Positions 213-6,375 of a DNA stretch of 64,000 nucleotides are shown here, piece by piece (within the stretch, counting starts at the first letter, position 1; each line of letters begins with the position of its first letter). A model generated the notes under the pieces. That model was not told where the DNA came from. It did not search any database and saw only the letters and a program-made list of their open reading frames with translations. This stretch comes from Leucobacter chromiiresistens (GTDB taxonomy: Bacteria > Actinomycetota > Actinomycetes > Actinomycetales > Microbacteriaceae): the NCBI RefSeq assembly GCF_001477055.1, contig NZ_LDRK01000018.1:62001-126000 (forward strand). Reading direction: 5' to 3'. A program made the position numbers and the translations under genes.

Positions 213-1202
213 TCAGGCGCCGTACGCCGAGAGCGCTCGATCCGTCCACTCGCGGACGGCCGCTCGTGCGGATTCCGGCGACTCGATCTCGACGTCGCCC
301 GGGAGCACCTGAACGAGCTGCACCGCGGTGCCCCGGTGCCACGCCTCGATTCGCACGCGGAGCCGCCCGTCGTCCGCCTGCTCAAGCACCTCGGGATCGA
401 AGCCGGCGAGCTGCGCGAGGGCCGTCTCGGATACGCGGGCGATGAGGTGCGTCATGGCGGGAGGCCCCGCATCGGCGGCAGCGCCTCGGGTCGGGCGCGA
501 CGCGGGAGCGTCGCCGAGGCGCTCGGAACCCGCCGCGGAGGCCCGGCCCACCGAGATGTCGCGCATCTGATCGACGCGGAACGTGCGGTCCGCAGCGCGA
601 TCGAAGCAGTACGCGCGGAGATACCAGGTGCCCGATCCCTGGGTGAGCGAGCGCGGACGAACGGTGCGTCGGGAGTCCGAGCCCGAGGCATCGCGATAGA
701 CGAACGCGACCGGGCGATCCGCCTCGATGGCCGCCACGAGCTGCGGCAGGCGCGCATCGCCCGGCCCCTCCGTCACCGACATGGGCGCCGCGGCGCCCGC
801 GCCCAGCGCGGACCCGAGCTTCGCCGCGGTGGCCCGCGCGAGCTCGGCGTCCTCCGGTCCGAGCATCCCCGTGAGCGCCTGCAGACCCGCGATGAGCGCC
901 GCCGTCTCCATCGGGGCGAATCGGGGTGCGTCGTCGACCGCTACCGTCCGCGTCAGACTCACCACATCCTGCTGCTCCAGCGCATCCCAGTCGATGTCGA
1001 AGAGATCCTCATGCTGATAGTTCAACGTCTCGCCGGGAACCCCCGCAGTGCCCAGGAATCGGACCAGGCTGCGCACCAGCTCGGGCGGAACCGAGAAGCG
1101 CTCGGCGAGCTCGGCGACGGTGGCCGACCCCGCATCGCGCAGGTAGGCGACGAGCGAGAGCAGGAACGTGACGCGTTCGGGGGCGAGGACCTGTTTACGC
1201 AC
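213..1202 (-). CDS. pafC: PafC, WYL-domain DNA-damage response regulator subunit
   Basis: About 329 residues. PafC pairs with PafB to activate the LexA-independent mycobacterial-type DNA damage response; the WYL domain is thought to sense single-stranded nucleic acid. The N-terminus (LLSLVAYLRDAGSATVAELA) is a winged-helix domain. A WYL domain follows in the second half, with FVYRDASG, VRPRSL and TWYLRAYCFD. The GTG start at 1202 overlaps the pafB stop codon by eight bases, the usual arrangement for translationally coupled pafBC. The order FKBP-like lipoprotein, pafB, pafC, tatC suggests one operon. In this lineage the gene need not imply a proteasome; none of the proteasome genes is in the window. 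Confidence 0.9.
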   Translation of the reverse strand: MRKQVLAPERVTFLLSLVAYLRDAGSATVAELAERFSVPPELVRSLVRFLGTAGVPGETLNYQHEDLFDIDWDALEQQDVVSLTRTVAVDDAPRFAPMETAALIAGLQALTGMLGPEDAELARATAAKLGSALGAGAAAPMSVTEGPGDARLPQLVAAIEADRPVAFVYRDASGSDSRRTVRPRSLTQGSGTWYLRAYCFDRAADRTFRVDQMRDISVGRASAAGSERLGDAPASRPTRGAAADAGPPAMTHLIARVSETALAQLAGFDPEVLEQADDGRLRVRIEAWHRGTAVQLVQVLPGDVEIESPESARAAVREWTDRALSAYGA

Positions 1203-2322
1203 GGGCGGCTCCTCCCGGGCCGTCGCCCTCCGCCCCATCAGCGGCCGGGGCGACCGTCGGCGCGACCGCGCCCCCGCGCGTGCGGTGCACGTCGGCGATG
1301 CGGCGCAGCCCGGCCACGACCAGGTCGCGCAGCCGCTCCGGCTCGCAGACCGACACGTCGGCCCCGTATCCGATGAGCTCGGTCGCGAAGATGTGCGGAT
1401 CGAGCACGCCCACCTCGATCTCGCGGTGGTCCTCCGCACCGCAGCGCGCGGTTCCGGGCTCGTCGCTCGCGCGCGACAGGAGCCGCGCCTCCGCGATGCT
1501 CCCCCGGCGCACGCACAGGACCGCGCGCCGGTCGCTGCGGAGCCGCTCGAGATCGGCGACCGCATCGTCGATGCGCAGACGCAGCTCCGGGGCGACCTCC
1601 TCGGCGAGCTGCTGCACGCGCCCCTCGATGCGGGCGAGGAGGAAGGTGCGTGCGGCATCGCGCTCCAGATCCCACGAGATCAGATGCCAGCGGCCGTCGG
1701 CGCGATGCAGACGCAGCGGCGCCACCGTGCGCAGCAGCGGCTCGGAGCGGTCGGGCAGACGGTATGCGAAGCGCACCGTGCGCCCCGCATCGATGGCGCG
1801 CTGCAGGGGCGCCGCCGCCGCCTCAGCAGTGCCGAGCCGCGGCGCGATTCCGATCTGCTGCACATCGAGCCCCGCCCCGAGCGCTTCGAGCTTCATGGTG
1901 GCGCGCCGCGACTCCGCGCTCAGGCTCCCCTCGCTCCAGGCGAGGGCGGCCAGCCGCAGCAGCATGAGCTCCCGCTCGGAGAACCGCAGGTCGGAGGGGA
2001 ACTGGAGACGCTCCTTCGAGATGCGGTACCGCGTGAGCTGGTTGTTGCCCGCATCCTGAGGATCGTCGAACGCCTCGATCTGGATCCCGAGAGACCGCAG
2101 CTGGTCCTTGTCGCGCTCGAACTGCTTCTCGAGGGCGGGGCTGATGCGTCCATGCCGATACCGGTCGGCGTAGCCGTACACGGACGAGAGCAGCTCCCGC
2201 TTCGTCGCGCCGAGCGGACTGACGACGAGGGCGAGCACCAGGCTGAACAGCCGCTGCTCGCTCGGCACGGAGGATCGCGGCGCCTTCGCGGGCGCGTCGG
2301 AGGAGGCCGAGCTGCTCGGCAC
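1195..2322 (-). CDS. pafB: PafB, WYL-domain DNA-damage response regulator subunit
   Basis: 375 residues. It is the partner of PafC in the heterodimeric PafBC transcription activator. After a low-complexity Ser/Ala N-terminus there is a winged-helix segment (EQRLFSLVLALVVSPLGATK, about residues 22-41) and the helix RELLSSVYGYADRY. The WYL domain begins near residue 190 with VRFAYRLPDRSEP and continues with VAPLRLHRADGRWHLISWD. The ATG at 2322 is 8 bases from the stop of the lipoprotein gene upstream. The 3' end overlaps pafC. Confidence 0.9.
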   Translation of the reverse strand: MPSSSASSDAPAKAPRSSVPSEQRLFSLVLALVVSPLGATKRELLSSVYGYADRYRHGRISPALEKQFERDKDQLRSLGIQIEAFDDPQDAGNNQLTRYRISKERLQFPSDLRFSERELMLLRLAALAWSEGSLSAESRRATMKLEALGAGLDVQQIGIAPRLGTAEAAAAPLQRAIDAGRTVRFAYRLPDRSEPLLRTVAPLRLHRADGRWHLISWDLERDAARTFLLARIEGRVQQLAEEVAPELRLRIDDAVADLERLRSDRRAVLCVRRGSIAEARLLSRASDEPGTARCGAEDHREIEVGVLDPHIFATELIGYGADVSVCEPERLRDLVVAGLRRIADVHRTRGGAVAPTVAPAADGAEGDGPGGAARA

Positions 2323-2330
2323 GGCCGGCC

Positions 2331-3257
2331 TCAGCTGACCCCGAGGATGTCGACGACCACGACGCGGGCGTCGGCGCTGCCCTCGTTCTCGACGATGACC
2401 ACCTGGGAGCCGACCGGCTTGCCGGTCAGCTCGGCTCGGTACGTCACGCCGGACTGCGCGATGTCGGCCTCGGTGTAGAGCAGCTTGAGACCCGTGTTCC
2501 AGGTGTTCTCCTGCTCCATCCCGTCCCAGCCGACGGCGAGCACCTGGGCGATCACGTTGTCGGTGGCCGTGACGTCGTCGCCATCGCCCTCGATGCGCAC
2601 CGCCGAGGTCGTGCCCTCAGGCGCATCGGTCGGCGGCAGCACGACTCCGACGCGCCCCTCGTCGTCCGTGACCACCGCCGGGAACCCGTTCGGCAAGCCG
2701 CGAGCGGGGCCCTCCGCCGAGGTGGGAGCGGTCGAGATCACGTCGACGACGCCGATGAGCGCGCCGGCGTCGGGAGCGCCGAGCTGACCGGCGAGCTGCG
2801 CACTCTCCTGCGGTGCGAGCGCGAGCACCACGCGGTCGCCCGGCACGGAGCAGCGCACAGCCTCGCTCAGCGGGTTCGCGGTCTCCTCCGCGACGAGCAG
2901 CGGCTGCGGCGGACGCGACGAGTCGGTGAAGCCCTCGCTCTGGAACAGGGTCTCGCCCGTAGCGGCGTCGAAGAAGGCCATGTTGACGCCGACGAGCGAC
3001 TGCTCCCCCGCCGCGTAGCCGTCGCGGTCGCCGGATTCGACCACGGTGCGCTGCGTGGAGGTGATCTCGACGTTCTCGGGCGCCGAGATCTGCGGCGCCT
3101 CGCCGAAGCTCCCCAGCACGGTCGTGCTGTCGCTCAGCGCGCCCGGCTGCAGCGTCGCCGTGCAGTCGGAGGCCTGCGCCTGCTGCGCGCTGCATCCCGT
3201 CGCTCCGGCGAGGAGCAGCGCAGCGGCGGCGGTAGCGGGAATGATGCGACGGAGCAT
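2331..3257 (-). CDS. FKBP-type peptidyl-prolyl isomerase-like lipoprotein
   Basis: 308 residues. The N-terminus is a lipoprotein signal: basic MLRR, a hydrophobic stretch AAAALLLAG and the lipobox ATGC with Cys22, so the protein should be tethered outside the membrane. The C-terminal part (QVLAVGWDGMEQENTW, then GKPVGSQVVIVEN) resembles the degenerate FKBP folds of actinobacterial lipoproteins that sit next to pafB. The usual FKBP active-site residues are not obvious, so isomerase activity is uncertain. The ATG at 3257 was chosen because GAGAGG lies just upstream; a GTG two codons earlier is possible. A -10-like TAGGAT lies at 3298-3293. Confidence 0.75.
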   Translation of the reverse strand: MLRRIIPATAAAALLLAGATGCSAQQAQASDCTATLQPGALSDSTTVLGSFGEAPQISAPENVEITSTQRTVVESGDRDGYAAGEQSLVGVNMAFFDAATGETLFQSEGFTDSSRPPQPLLVAEETANPLSEAVRCSVPGDRVVLALAPQESAQLAGQLGAPDAGALIGVVDVISTAPTSAEGPARGLPNGFPAVVTDDEGRVGVVLPPTDAPEGTTSAVRIEGDGDDVTATDNVIAQVLAVGWDGMEQENTWNTGLKLLYTEADIAQSGVTYRAELTGKPVGSQVVIVENEGSADARVVVVDILGVS

Positions 3258-3373
3258 GAGCACCTCTCGAGGAAGCCGATGTGAACCCGGCCATCCTATC
3301 GAACCGGGGCTGAGCGGGCGCGCACGGCCCACGCGGATGGCGTCGCCCGCTGACCTTCCGCGAGCCGGTCGCG

Positions 3374-5212
3374 CTACGCGGCGCCGTCCGGCCGTGCGGG
3401 GTCCGCGCGCTCCGGGCGCTCCTCCGCCTCGCCCGCCGGGAGCTCACCGCCGCGCTCACGGGCGAACTGCTGCGTCTCGCGCACCTTCTTCCGCAGCACC
3501 TTGTCGCTCTTGCTCCGCTCGCCCACCGCCTCGGGCGTCCACACCTCGGCGCTCGCCGGGGCTGCGCCCTCCGGCCCGAGGTCGGGCAGCCAGCTGCCCA
3601 GGTCCGCCTCGCTGAAGTCGCTCTTCGACGCCCGGCGCTTCAGCTCGGGGAGCACGGTGCCCGGCGCAAGGCGCCTGGCGGTCACGAGGAAGCCCGTGTG
3701 CGCGACCATGCGATGATCGGGGCGCACCGCGAGCCCCTCCACGTGCCAGCCGCGCACCAGCGTCTCCGAGGCCTGGGCGTGGGCGAATCCACCGCTCCGT
3801 CGGATCTGCTCCACGGTGCGGGAGAGCTGCGTCACAGTGGCGACGTAGCAGATGAGCACTCCGCCCGGGGCGAGCGCCTCGGCGGCCACGTCGACGCACT
3901 CCCAGGGTGCGAGCATGTCGAGCACCACCCGGTCGATGCTGCCCGGCGCGCACACCGTCGGCAGGGTCTCCTGCAGATCGCCGACGGAGAGGGTCCAGTT
4001 CTCGGGCACGCTCCCCGAGAAGGCGACCACGTTCGCGGTGGCGATCTCCGCGAACTCGTCGCGGCGTTCGAAGGAGAAGAGCGCTCCGTCGGAGCCGACG
4101 CCCCTGAGCAGGTGCAGCGACAGGGCTCCGGATCCGACGCCCGCCTCCACGACGCGAGCGCCCGGGAAGATGTCGGCGAGCGAGAGGATCTGCGCGGCGT
4201 CCTTGGGGTACACGATCGCGGCGCCCCGCGGCATCGACATGACGAAGTCGGAGAGCAGGGGCCGGAGCGCGAGGTACTCCTCGCCGCTGCTGTTGACCAC
4301 GACCGAGGCGTCCGGTCGTCCGACGATCTCCGCGTGCGGGATCACACCGCGGTGGCTGTGGAACTCACCCTCGCGCACGAGGGTGATCGTGTTGAGCCGC
4401 CCCTTCGGCCCGGTGAGCTGCACGCGGTCGCCGTACTGGAACGGTCCCCGCACCGCGGGCGCCTCGCCCGCCGCGACCGCCGCGCCGTCGGCGTCCGCGC
4501 CGGCGACCGGCTGCGCCGCCTCGCCGCGCAGGGCGGCGTACCGCTCGCTCAGCGCCGCGGCGTCCACCCCGTCGAGCGACGGCCAGATCTCGTGCGCCGG
4601 CGCCTCCGCCAGGTCGAGCAGGTTCGGGATGCCGAAGGCGATCGCGCCGGAGGCGTGAGCCGATCGCAGCCCGGTGACCGAGTCCTCGAGCGCGACGCAC
4701 TCCGCGATGTCGACGCCGAGCAGCTGCGCTCCCCTGAGATACGGGTCGGGATGCGGCTTCTCGTGCGCCACCTCGTCCCCGCCGACCACGCGGGCGAAGA
4801 GCCCCTCGGGGAGCAGCGCCACCACGGCGTCCGCGATCTCGCGCACCGCCATGGTCACGAGGGCGCACGGGATGCCGGCGTCGCGCAGCGAGTGCAGCAG
4901 CTCGACGGCGCCCGGCCTCCAGAGCGGCGTCGAAGCGGCGAGCCCGGCGATGACGCCCGACTTCCACTCCTCGATGATCTCGTCGACCTCCATCGGCACG
5001 CCGAGCTCCCGGAACCGCTGCGCGGCGGCGCGCAGACCCGACCCGATCAGCGAGTTGCGGACCTCCGGGGTCAGTTCGATGCCGTAGCGGCCGAGCATGG
5101 CGAGCTCGGACTCGAGCCAGAGCGGCTCCGAATCGATCAGGGTGCCGTCCATGTCCCAGAGCACGGCAGCGGGGCGAGCGTCGGCTGTCCGCTCAGAGAG
5201 GAATGCGTTCAT
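3374..5212 (-). CDS. trmI: Fusion: HAD-family phosphohydrolase + tRNA (adenine-58-N1)-methyltransferase TrmI
   Basis: 612 residues in one open frame. Residues about 15-225 are a HAD-IA hydrolase: nucleophile motif DMDGT at 20-24, the LVTMA motif, and the distal KPHPDPY and LEDSVTG motifs. After an Ala/Asp-rich linker (about 228-252), GPFQYGDRVQL opens a complete TrmI: N-terminal beta domain, SAM-binding VVEAGVGSGALSLHLL near 352, and the family's usual basic C-terminal tail. TrmI methylates A58 in the T-loop of tRNAs. A GTG at 4453, just before GPFQYGD, could start TrmI alone (359 residues). The full-length ATG at 5212 is 7 bases after TACACT, so the message may be leaderless. The two genes are commonly separate in other bacteria. 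Confidence 0.88.
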   Translation of the reverse strand: MNAFLSERTADARPAAVLWDMDGTLIDSEPLWLESELAMLGRYGIELTPEVRNSLIGSGLRAAAQRFRELGVPMEVDEIIEEWKSGVIAGLAASTPLWRPGAVELLHSLRDAGIPCALVTMAVREIADAVVALLPEGLFARVVGGDEVAHEKPHPDPYLRGAQLLGVDIAECVALEDSVTGLRSAHASGAIAFGIPNLLDLAEAPAHEIWPSLDGVDAAALSERYAALRGEAAQPVAGADADGAAVAAGEAPAVRGPFQYGDRVQLTGPKGRLNTITLVREGEFHSHRGVIPHAEIVGRPDASVVVNSSGEEYLALRPLLSDFVMSMPRGAAIVYPKDAAQILSLADIFPGARVVEAGVGSGALSLHLLRGVGSDGALFSFERRDEFAEIATANVVAFSGSVPENWTLSVGDLQETLPTVCAPGSIDRVVLDMLAPWECVDVAAEALAPGGVLICYVATVTQLSRTVEQIRRSGGFAHAQASETLVRGWHVEGLAVRPDHRMVAHTGFLVTARRLAPGTVLPELKRRASKSDFSEADLGSWLPDLGPEGAAPASAEVWTPEAVGERSKSDKVLRKKVRETQQFARERGGELPAGEAEERPERADPARPDGAA

Positions 5213-5253: not shown

Positions 5254-6375
5254 ATGTCCGAACCCTCCGCGCCGAATTCCCGTGTACTCATCGTCGCGTT
5301 CCAGGGATGGAGCGATGCCGGCGACGCCACCACGGAGGTGCTGCAGCATCTCGCGGGGCTGATCGACGCCGAGGTGCTCCACGAGATCGGCGCCGAGGGG
5401 TACGTCGACTTCCAGGTGCATCGCCCGAAGGTGCTCTTCGACGCGACGGGCAAGCGTGTGCTCGAATGGCCGGACACACGGCTGTTCGGCCCGGTGCAGC
5501 GCCCGGGCGCGTCGGCTGAGGCGCTCGAGGCGCCGCTCGCCTCCGAGAGCGAGACGGTGCGGCGGATCGACGGCAGCCCCGTGCGCGATCTCTTCCTCCT
5601 GGCCGGCGTCGAGCCCGCTCGCGACTGGCAGAACTTCGCCGATGAGGTCGTGGAGCTGGTCGACGTCTGGGCGATCGACTTCGTCATCATCCTGGGCTCC
5701 ATGTTCTCCGACGCCCCGCACACGCGTCCGATCGTCACGACCGTCACCTCGGAGTACGCGGCGCGCCGCGACGCGGTCGGGGCGGTGCGCAGCAGCTACG
5801 AGGGCCCGGCGGGCATCTCGACCGTGATCGACCTCGCACTCGCGGAGGCCGGCATCGAGACGCTCTCGCTCTGGGCGCAGGTACCCCACTACGTGCACAG
5901 CACGCCGTCCCCCAAGGCGTCGCTCGCGCTGCTCGACAAGCTCGAAGAGCTGCTCGACATCGTGATCCCCCGCGGCGAGCTGCTCGCGCAGGCGAACGAG
6001 TGGGAGGCGAACATCAATCGGATCGCCGACGCCGACGAGGACATGTCGCGCTACATCCGGCGCCTCGAGGAATCGCGGGACGAGGAGCTCGCGGCCGAGA
6101 CGACGGGCGACGCGATCGCGCTCGAGTTCGAGAAGTTCTTGAAGGGCGGGCCGCGGTTCGCCCGCGACGTCGAGGCCCCGCGGCCCGCCGCTGAGCGCCC
6201 GGCCGCACCGGGGCCCTCGCCCGCGCCGGAGCCCGCCGTCGACGCGGAACCCGCCGACGCGGAGCCCGCCGATGCGGAGACGGGCACCGGCCCGAGCGGA
6301 TCAGATCCCGGCGGATCGAATCCGCGGGAGGCGCCGGCCGGCGACGACGACGCTCCCGACGCGCCGCGCCCGTAG
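5254..6375 (+). CDS. PAC2-family protein
   Basis: 373 residues. PAC2 (proteasome assembly chaperone 2-like) proteins are ATP-grasp-neighbour or chaperone-like folds of unproven bacterial function. The domain covers about residues 8-285 (VLIVAFQGWSDAGDATTEVL, FVIILGSMFSDAPHTRP, ISTVIDLALAEAGI, VPHYVHSTPSPKA). The last 70 residues are low-complexity Pro/Ala/Asp/Glu with a repeated AEPAD unit, probably disordered. The ATG at 5254 has only a weak GGAG close by and a -10-like TACCCT 7 bases upstream, so a leaderless start is likely; an in-frame ATG at 5203 would add 17 unrelated residues and overlap the divergent gene. Confidence 0.85.
   Translation: MSEPSAPNSRVLIVAFQGWSDAGDATTEVLQHLAGLIDAEVLHEIGAEGYVDFQVHRPKVLFDATGKRVLEWPDTRLFGPVQRPGASAEALEAPLASESETVRRIDGSPVRDLFLLAGVEPARDWQNFADEVVELVDVWAIDFVIILGSMFSDAPHTRPIVTTVTSEYAARRDAVGAVRSSYEGPAGISTVIDLALAEAGIETLSLWAQVPHYVHSTPSPKASLALLDKLEELLDIVIPRGELLAQANEWEANINRIADADEDMSRYIRRLEESRDEELAAETTGDAIALEFEKFLKGGPRFARDVEAPRPAAERPAAPGPSPAPEPAVDAEPADAEPADAETGTGPSGSDPGGSNPREAPAGDDDAPDAPRP

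Follow-up and report, generated by a model that had tools for sequence, protein, structure and literature searches.

The window, a stretch of 64,000 nt from a Leucobacter chromiiresistens contig, carries a single open reading frame in which a HAD-IA phosphatase domain is followed, after a linker, by the tRNA m1A58 methyltransferase TrmI (Table 1). All Pfam domains on the fused ORF score above cut-off: HAD_2 at residues 17-190 (7.4e-25), TrmI-like_N (2.9e-24; 85.2 bits, cut-off 24) and GCD14 (3e-21; 76.7 bits, cut-off 26). The HAD-IA class is characterized by motifs I-IV (DxDGT, T, K and ED), and all four are present, with DMDGT corresponding to D20-T24 and the motif residues invariant in 25/25 fused and 25/25 separate rows of the alignments. 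The SAM-binding and catalytic-loop motifs of TrmI are conserved across 25 fused and 25 separate rows, apart from single deviations at variable positions. The original prediction of a complete HAD-IA domain, with its DMDGT motif, joined in frame to a complete TrmI by an Ala/Asp linker is thus borne out by the ORF, Pfam and the motifs. GC content by codon position over the fused ORF is 0.75/0.51/0.94, and other genes of the window are alike. The fused gene is the one TrmI that the query finds in the window genome (93.7% complete), the second match being another HAD.

Table 1. Features of the fused gene and its divergent neighbour (positions in the window), and of HAD-GH18 fused ORFs (positions in their own loci)
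Feature	Position	Strand	Remarks
HAD-TrmI fused CDS	3374..5212	-	612 aa + stop; ATG start; no internal stop
HAD-IA phosphatase domain, res. ~15-232	4517..5170	-	Pfam HAD_2; D20, D22, T120, K152, E176/D177
Ala/Gly/Asp-rich linker, res. ~233-253	4454..4516	-	Predicted disordered; occupies the place of the relatives' stop/start overlap (junction alignments)
In-frame GTG, V254 (codon 254)	4451..4453	-	Candidate internal start, preceded by an SD-like GCGAGG; conservation weak
TrmI-like N-terminal domain, res. 256-305	4298..4447	-	Pfam TrmI-like_N
TrmI/GCD14 methyltransferase domain, res. 325-492	3737..4240	-	Pfam GCD14; carries EAGVGSG and LDMLAPW
PAC2-family gene, divergent neighbour	5254..6375	+	Pfam PAC2 1e-43; ORF open from 5203, likely start 5254
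HAD-GH18 fused ORFs	L309:1155-3011, L310:1848-3701, L311:1523-3358, L312:1793-3646, L313:1182-3425

The window genome is a draft of 194 contigs, and an error of sequencing or assembly that removed the stop between two ordinary genes was the alternative that the original prediction had itself raised. However, orthologues of the window gene at 95, 88 and 82% identity are likewise fused, and their linkers have diverged while the reading frame is still open. Fused genes also occur in the single-contig genomes G014, G152, G153, G196 and G197 and in the named records Leucobacter sp. L43, L. celer subsp. astrifaciens, L. massiliensis and L. chromiisoli. A base-calling artefact is therefore excluded, and an origin of the fusion by such an error, which is vanishingly improbable, was rejected. 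A survey of homologues had been proposed as a check on the fusion, and it finds the fused state recurring among Leucobacter orthologues.

The junction class of HAD/TrmI loci was assigned by tblastn and stop mapping. In Leucobacter, 53 of 54 genomes yielded one locus each, and these comprise 22 fused genes, 24 pairs with a 4-nt stop/start overlap, six pairs that are otherwise separate and one locus without an upstream HAD (L189), which lies at a contig edge and leaves 52 judgeable loci. Elsewhere in Microbacteriaceae, 131 of 147 genomes were classified, the other 16 giving no match, a partial or weak match, or being unfetched. G190, with a TrmI fragment only, was also left out. The 4-nt overlap is found in 108 of these 131 loci, a 1-nt overlap in five and an otherwise separate arrangement in 13; three are fused (L006, L007 and L010, one in each of three genera) and two have no upstream HAD (L250, and L209, which ends at a contig edge). 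An overlap of the form ATGA, GTGA or TTGA is the usual arrangement of the pair in relatives, and two of the three fused genomes outside Leucobacter have a congener with the 4-nt overlap (G008 versus G091; G136 versus G073). Fifteen more family loci from an order-level search have a 4-nt overlap (14) or a 1-nt overlap (one), and 80 named loci, whose genomes partly overlap the others, comprise 66 with a 4-nt overlap, ten otherwise separate and four fused. Eight records are titled Leucobacter, of which four are fused and four separate (sp. PH1c, sp. OLIS6, a MAG and L. chinensis); the name of L073, titled Leucobacter chinensis, disagrees with its genome-based genus.

Beyond the family, no full-length HAD-TrmI match was present among the matches listed for 297 genomes of the order and 296 of the phylum, where such matches rank first. 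Two loci, titled Planococcus sp. APC 4015 (L106) and a Microthrixaceae MAG (L138), have HAD-TrmI pairs with family-like 4-nt overlaps and are probably mislabelled or contaminated. A fusion of a phosphatase to a tRNA methylase had been called unusual. Among the literature matches listed (titles and abstract openings, a scope that excludes most subscription journals), no earlier HAD-TrmI fusion is described.

A phylogenetic tree of 52 of the 53 Leucobacter loci plus two outgroups was built from the HAD and TrmI segments, omitting what lies between them. Seven changes between the fused and separate states are needed on this tree (7-8 across bootstraps), at least four of which are forced by starred branches. 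A clade holding all fused rows is rejected by the AU test (p 1.1e-50), also when L047 is added (2e-7), and with it a single origin of the fusion. The fused L034, for example, groups with the separate L058 (96/85) and L055 (100/99). All of the deepest branches in Leucobacter carry the separate state and the overlap prevails in the family, and most of the changes are therefore taken as fusions, with an inferred direction from separate to fused. Some could be fissions. In L047, HAD and TrmI are separate but lie in one frame, with TAA followed by GAGGAG and by a GTG 18 nt on, while the rest of its clade is fused, and this locus may represent re-fission of a fused gene. Comparison of the sequences indicates several fusion events in Leucobacter and one in each of three other genera.

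A 4-nt overlap necessarily sets the frames of its two genes apart, so HAD and TrmI of an overlapping pair lie in different frames, and the indels at the junction differ between fused lineages when the alignments are inspected by eye. In 10/25 fused genes (L034, L044, L045, L048-L051, L180, L007 and L010), an (A/G/T)TGA that follows an SD-like stretch (-5.8 to -8.7 kcal/mol, the limit of -5.8 having been chosen after the sites had been seen) is retained in frame. These sites lie 27-99 nt upstream of the TrmI core, approximately where separate relatives start TrmI, and the background of such sites is 29 in 22,553 coding-core codons, or about two expected over 61 codons x 25 genes. Seven of the ten come from a single clade, whose member L046 no longer has the relic, and the number of lineages with relics is therefore four. 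The remaining 15 of 25 fused genes, including that of the window, have no such relic; the window gene (L001), being fused, has no overlap, and it has no in-frame NTGA relic. The count leaves out L042, in which an in-frame GTGA at -132 has a weaker SD (-4.1). Where a relic is present, the old overlap can still be read in the gene, but a frameshift upstream of it has brought its start into frame and shifted its stop into another. A frameshift route from overlapping pair to fusion is well supported, and it is most likely that the fusion came by small frameshifts rather than from a shared task of the two enzymes. The ATGA/GTGA overlap in most of the family is like that of the translationally coupled pairs described in the available part of PMC10666635, a subject that PMC6728339 also covers to judge from its listing, but the HAD/TrmI overlap has, several times, turned into a fusion; frame transitions in prokaryotes are the background subject of PMC3711429, as far as the available part of that paper goes.

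The GTG at position 4453 had been proposed as a site that might yield free TrmI as well. This codon lies in frame shortly ahead of the TrmI N-terminal domain, and its SD pairing of -7.0 kcal/mol compares with a median of -6.45 for the TrmI starts of 30 separate loci, a level of -7 being attained by 4.7% of the 1029 start-like codons that lie in frame within TrmI cores. Within the window lineage, L031 (95% identical) shares both the GTG and the SD (-6.4), but in L032 the GTG has a weak SD of -1.7, two more GTGs of this frame having -5.8 and -5.5, and in L033 a start codon is missing at this place. This GTG is no relic of the old overlap. From these sequence features, free TrmI from this GTG is possible; the proposed start holds as to frame and SD, and falls short in conservation. 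Internal initiation is better supported in the other fused lineages that keep the ancestral SD and start in frame. With such initiation, at the GTG here and at the retained ancestral start elsewhere, the fused frame would give two products and TrmI would assemble into mixed fused/free tetramers. Retention of the ancestral SD and start in 10/25 fused genes and the SD-like stretch at 4453 speak for such dual products, but five fused loci (L002, L035, L038, L042 and L046) have no start codon within 110 nt before the TrmI core, and together with the limited sharing in the window lineage this makes dual products unlikely.

Values of dN/dS in ten fused-fused pairs are 0.06-0.23 for HAD and 0.006-0.07 for TrmI, and in six separate pairs they are 0.07-0.19 and 0.015-0.11, respectively. 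Both domains of the fusion are under purifying selection by this measure, the HAD showing no decay since fusing, and both look functional. An AlphaFold2 model of the whole fusion has a mean pLDDT of 83.5, with residues 236-250 below 50, and a pTM of 0.55, while HAD alone gives a pLDDT of 94.8 and a pTM of 0.90. The model can be read as two firm domains on a probably flexible tether, with a domain orientation that is not firm; its alignment was shallow (75 rows) and came without inter-domain error output, such that a weak HAD-TrmI interface could be missed. The rows of alignments A1 (75 rows) and A2 (69 rows) were hand-picked from all loci, and in A1 the separate TrmI rows begin three codons before the BLAST core rather than at their own start codon, the rows of L006, L007 and L010 being without a start codon. 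Linker length, as delimited by BLAST, varies from 13 to 57 codons across the fused genes.

The TrmI half matches Rv2118c, the TrmI of M. tuberculosis (PDB 1i9g), over residues 26-296 of that half (E 5.2e-89), but Rv2118c is a free protein of 280 aa whereas the window TrmI has a HAD domain in front of it. Other TrmI enzymes are tetramers according to the available part of PMC3281791, and by analogy the fusion would carry four HADs per tetramer. The HAD half is confidently modelled as a HAD core with a helical cap as in CbbY and YniC, and it scores 45.6 bits against the HAD-IA family TIGR01509 (cut-off 29.4). Its best sequence match is YniC/HxpB (1te2), a 2-deoxyglucose-6-P phosphatase, with E 6.5e-17 and a common fold and motifs; HxpB, CbbY and beta-phosphoglucomutase have TM-scores of about 0.7-0.8 to the HAD model and 19-28% identity in the fold list. 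With the HxpB equivalog (NF008087) it reaches 87.2 bits, where the cut-off is 191, so the substrate of HxpB is not transferable, and no equivalog cut-off is reached among the best 25 of 26 NCBIfam families. The best fold match is MtlD of Acinetobacter baumannii (7ocn), in which an N-terminal HAD of the same clade is also fused to a second enzyme. In MtlD, however, the HAD phosphatase and the mannitol-1-P dehydrogenase both act on mannitol-1-phosphate, and no such link is known for HAD and TrmI. A role of the HAD in the histidine operon, suggested by the name of a C. glutamicum gene, was also considered. It was dropped, the gene name being absent from the available part of PMC5516325 and from the literature matches listed, and hisG lying ~44 kb away.

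The original prediction was that the fusion could link nucleotide or modified-sugar clean-up to tRNA maturation. In a reading of this kind, the HAD would work with TrmI, for example by dephosphorylating modified nucleotides or a tRNA-derived product, and the fusion would be selected for proximity. Among the nearer solved relatives of the HAD are the human pseudouridine-5'-phosphatase HDHD1A (3l5k, 9m7l; 29% identity, TM about 0.7, E 1.3e-15), itself a separate enzyme, and AlnB, an alnumycin P phosphatase, but sugar phosphatases are equally near, and the nearest solved folds (MtlD, CbbY, YniC, HDHD1A, beta-PGM and AlnB; ~19-29% identity) mix sugar and nucleotide-like substrates. Gene order in other families of the order also tells against such a link. 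In 7/20 loci, TrmI has a homologous HAD 0.9-3.2 kb upstream on its own strand, and the intervening ORF is an M50 peptidase in 5/5 of these seven that were scanned (L290, L297, L299, L303 and L305), which makes the direct adjacency of HAD and TrmI look secondary. These M50 peptidases are site-2-protease-like, and L303 additionally has a PD-(D/E)XK nuclease gene on the opposite strand. In the stretch examined the other 13/20 loci have no HAD, in some because the contig ends. In G201, G217 and G233, which are among those 13, the strand of TrmI carries a HAD at a distance of 5-12 kb.

The fusion partners of the HAD also differ. In a distant actinomycetote family, 5/5 proteins scanned carry within one ORF a HAD of this subfamily (45-48% identity) followed by a GH18 domain (Table 1), and in L317, from that same family, HAD and GH18 are separate neighbours; in L318, the one neighbour of the HAD that was scanned is not GH18. 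A hydrophobic stretch can be seen by eye between the domains of the HAD-GH18 proteins L309-L312.

Recurrence of the fusion speaks for a functional link. The control pairs trpB-trpA, obg-proB and fmt-rsmB are each fused in 0/54 genomes of the genus Leucobacter, no match spanning both proteins of a pair, with the caveats that their 4-nt overlap was confirmed in the window only and that both genes were not seen in some genomes. Some rsmB matches reach back into fmt (furthest in G169, to residue 183 of 316), where a separate fmt lies in another frame. A general Leucobacter habit of fusing overlapping genes is thus not seen in these three pairs, and the HAD-TrmI fusion is unusually frequent in comparison and might be favoured rather than just tolerated, although the excess would also be explained if both genes had disordered ends. 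Overlapping pairs are, in the available part of PMC10666635, enriched for subunits of complexes and often encode partners, which would fit an interaction of HAD and TrmI by analogy. Set against the M50 gene, the GH18 fusions, the mixed nearest HADs, the loose domain orientation of the model and the variable linker, this leaves a selected role in a common tRNA pathway very unlikely, and the claim is not upheld; it is more likely that the fusion couples the expression of neighbours. A further reading is that the fusion was repeatedly favoured, in some ten frameshift events within one family (seven changes in Leucobacter and three other genera), that some fusions, with the old ribosome-binding site and start retained, yield tethered and free TrmI in mixed tetramers with a tunable HAD content, and that the HAD then regulates, or is metabolically coupled to, m1A58 modification; this is quite unlikely.

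The preferred reading is that the gene is probably a bifunctional fusion made from an overlapping pair by recurrent frameshift, with one-to-one expression and no need of a shared pathway. In an ancestor of the family, the HAD gene would have come to adjoin trmI on its upstream side, the stop of the one overlapping the start of the other by 4 bases, and translation of TrmI probably relied on termination-reinitiation. Within the window lineage, an indel near the disordered HAD end would have shifted HAD into the TrmI frame, such that the HAD stop was lost from the frame and the ribosome continued into TrmI. Later loss of the old overlap would leave TrmI made mainly or only as HAD-linker-TrmI. 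TrmI would still be a tetramer that methylates A58 of tRNA, now with HAD domains on flexible tethers, while the HAD would independently act as a phosphatase on a small phosphomonoester; as for the HxpB/MtlD/CbbY/beta-PGM clade, this is most likely a sugar phosphate. One-to-one expression would be fixed by the fusion, with no shared pathway required. A single genus that holds the pair as an overlap, as a fusion with the old start and as a fusion without it constitutes a compact natural experiment on gene merging, in which fusions of overlapping genes as neutral run-throughs can be tested against selection for stoichiometry. It also cautions that a single fusion does not show a shared pathway, since a close homologue of this HAD joins GH18 elsewhere.

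Immediately 3' of the fusion, window positions 2331-3332 (reverse strand) hold a 333-aa ORF that has a lipoprotein-like N-terminus by eye and no Pfam or NCBIfam match. Also near TrmI, a WYL/WCX regulator is encoded at 1195-2322 (reverse strand) and the next ORF lies at 213-1658 (reverse strand), an arrangement that resembles the pafBC neighbourhood of other actinobacteria.
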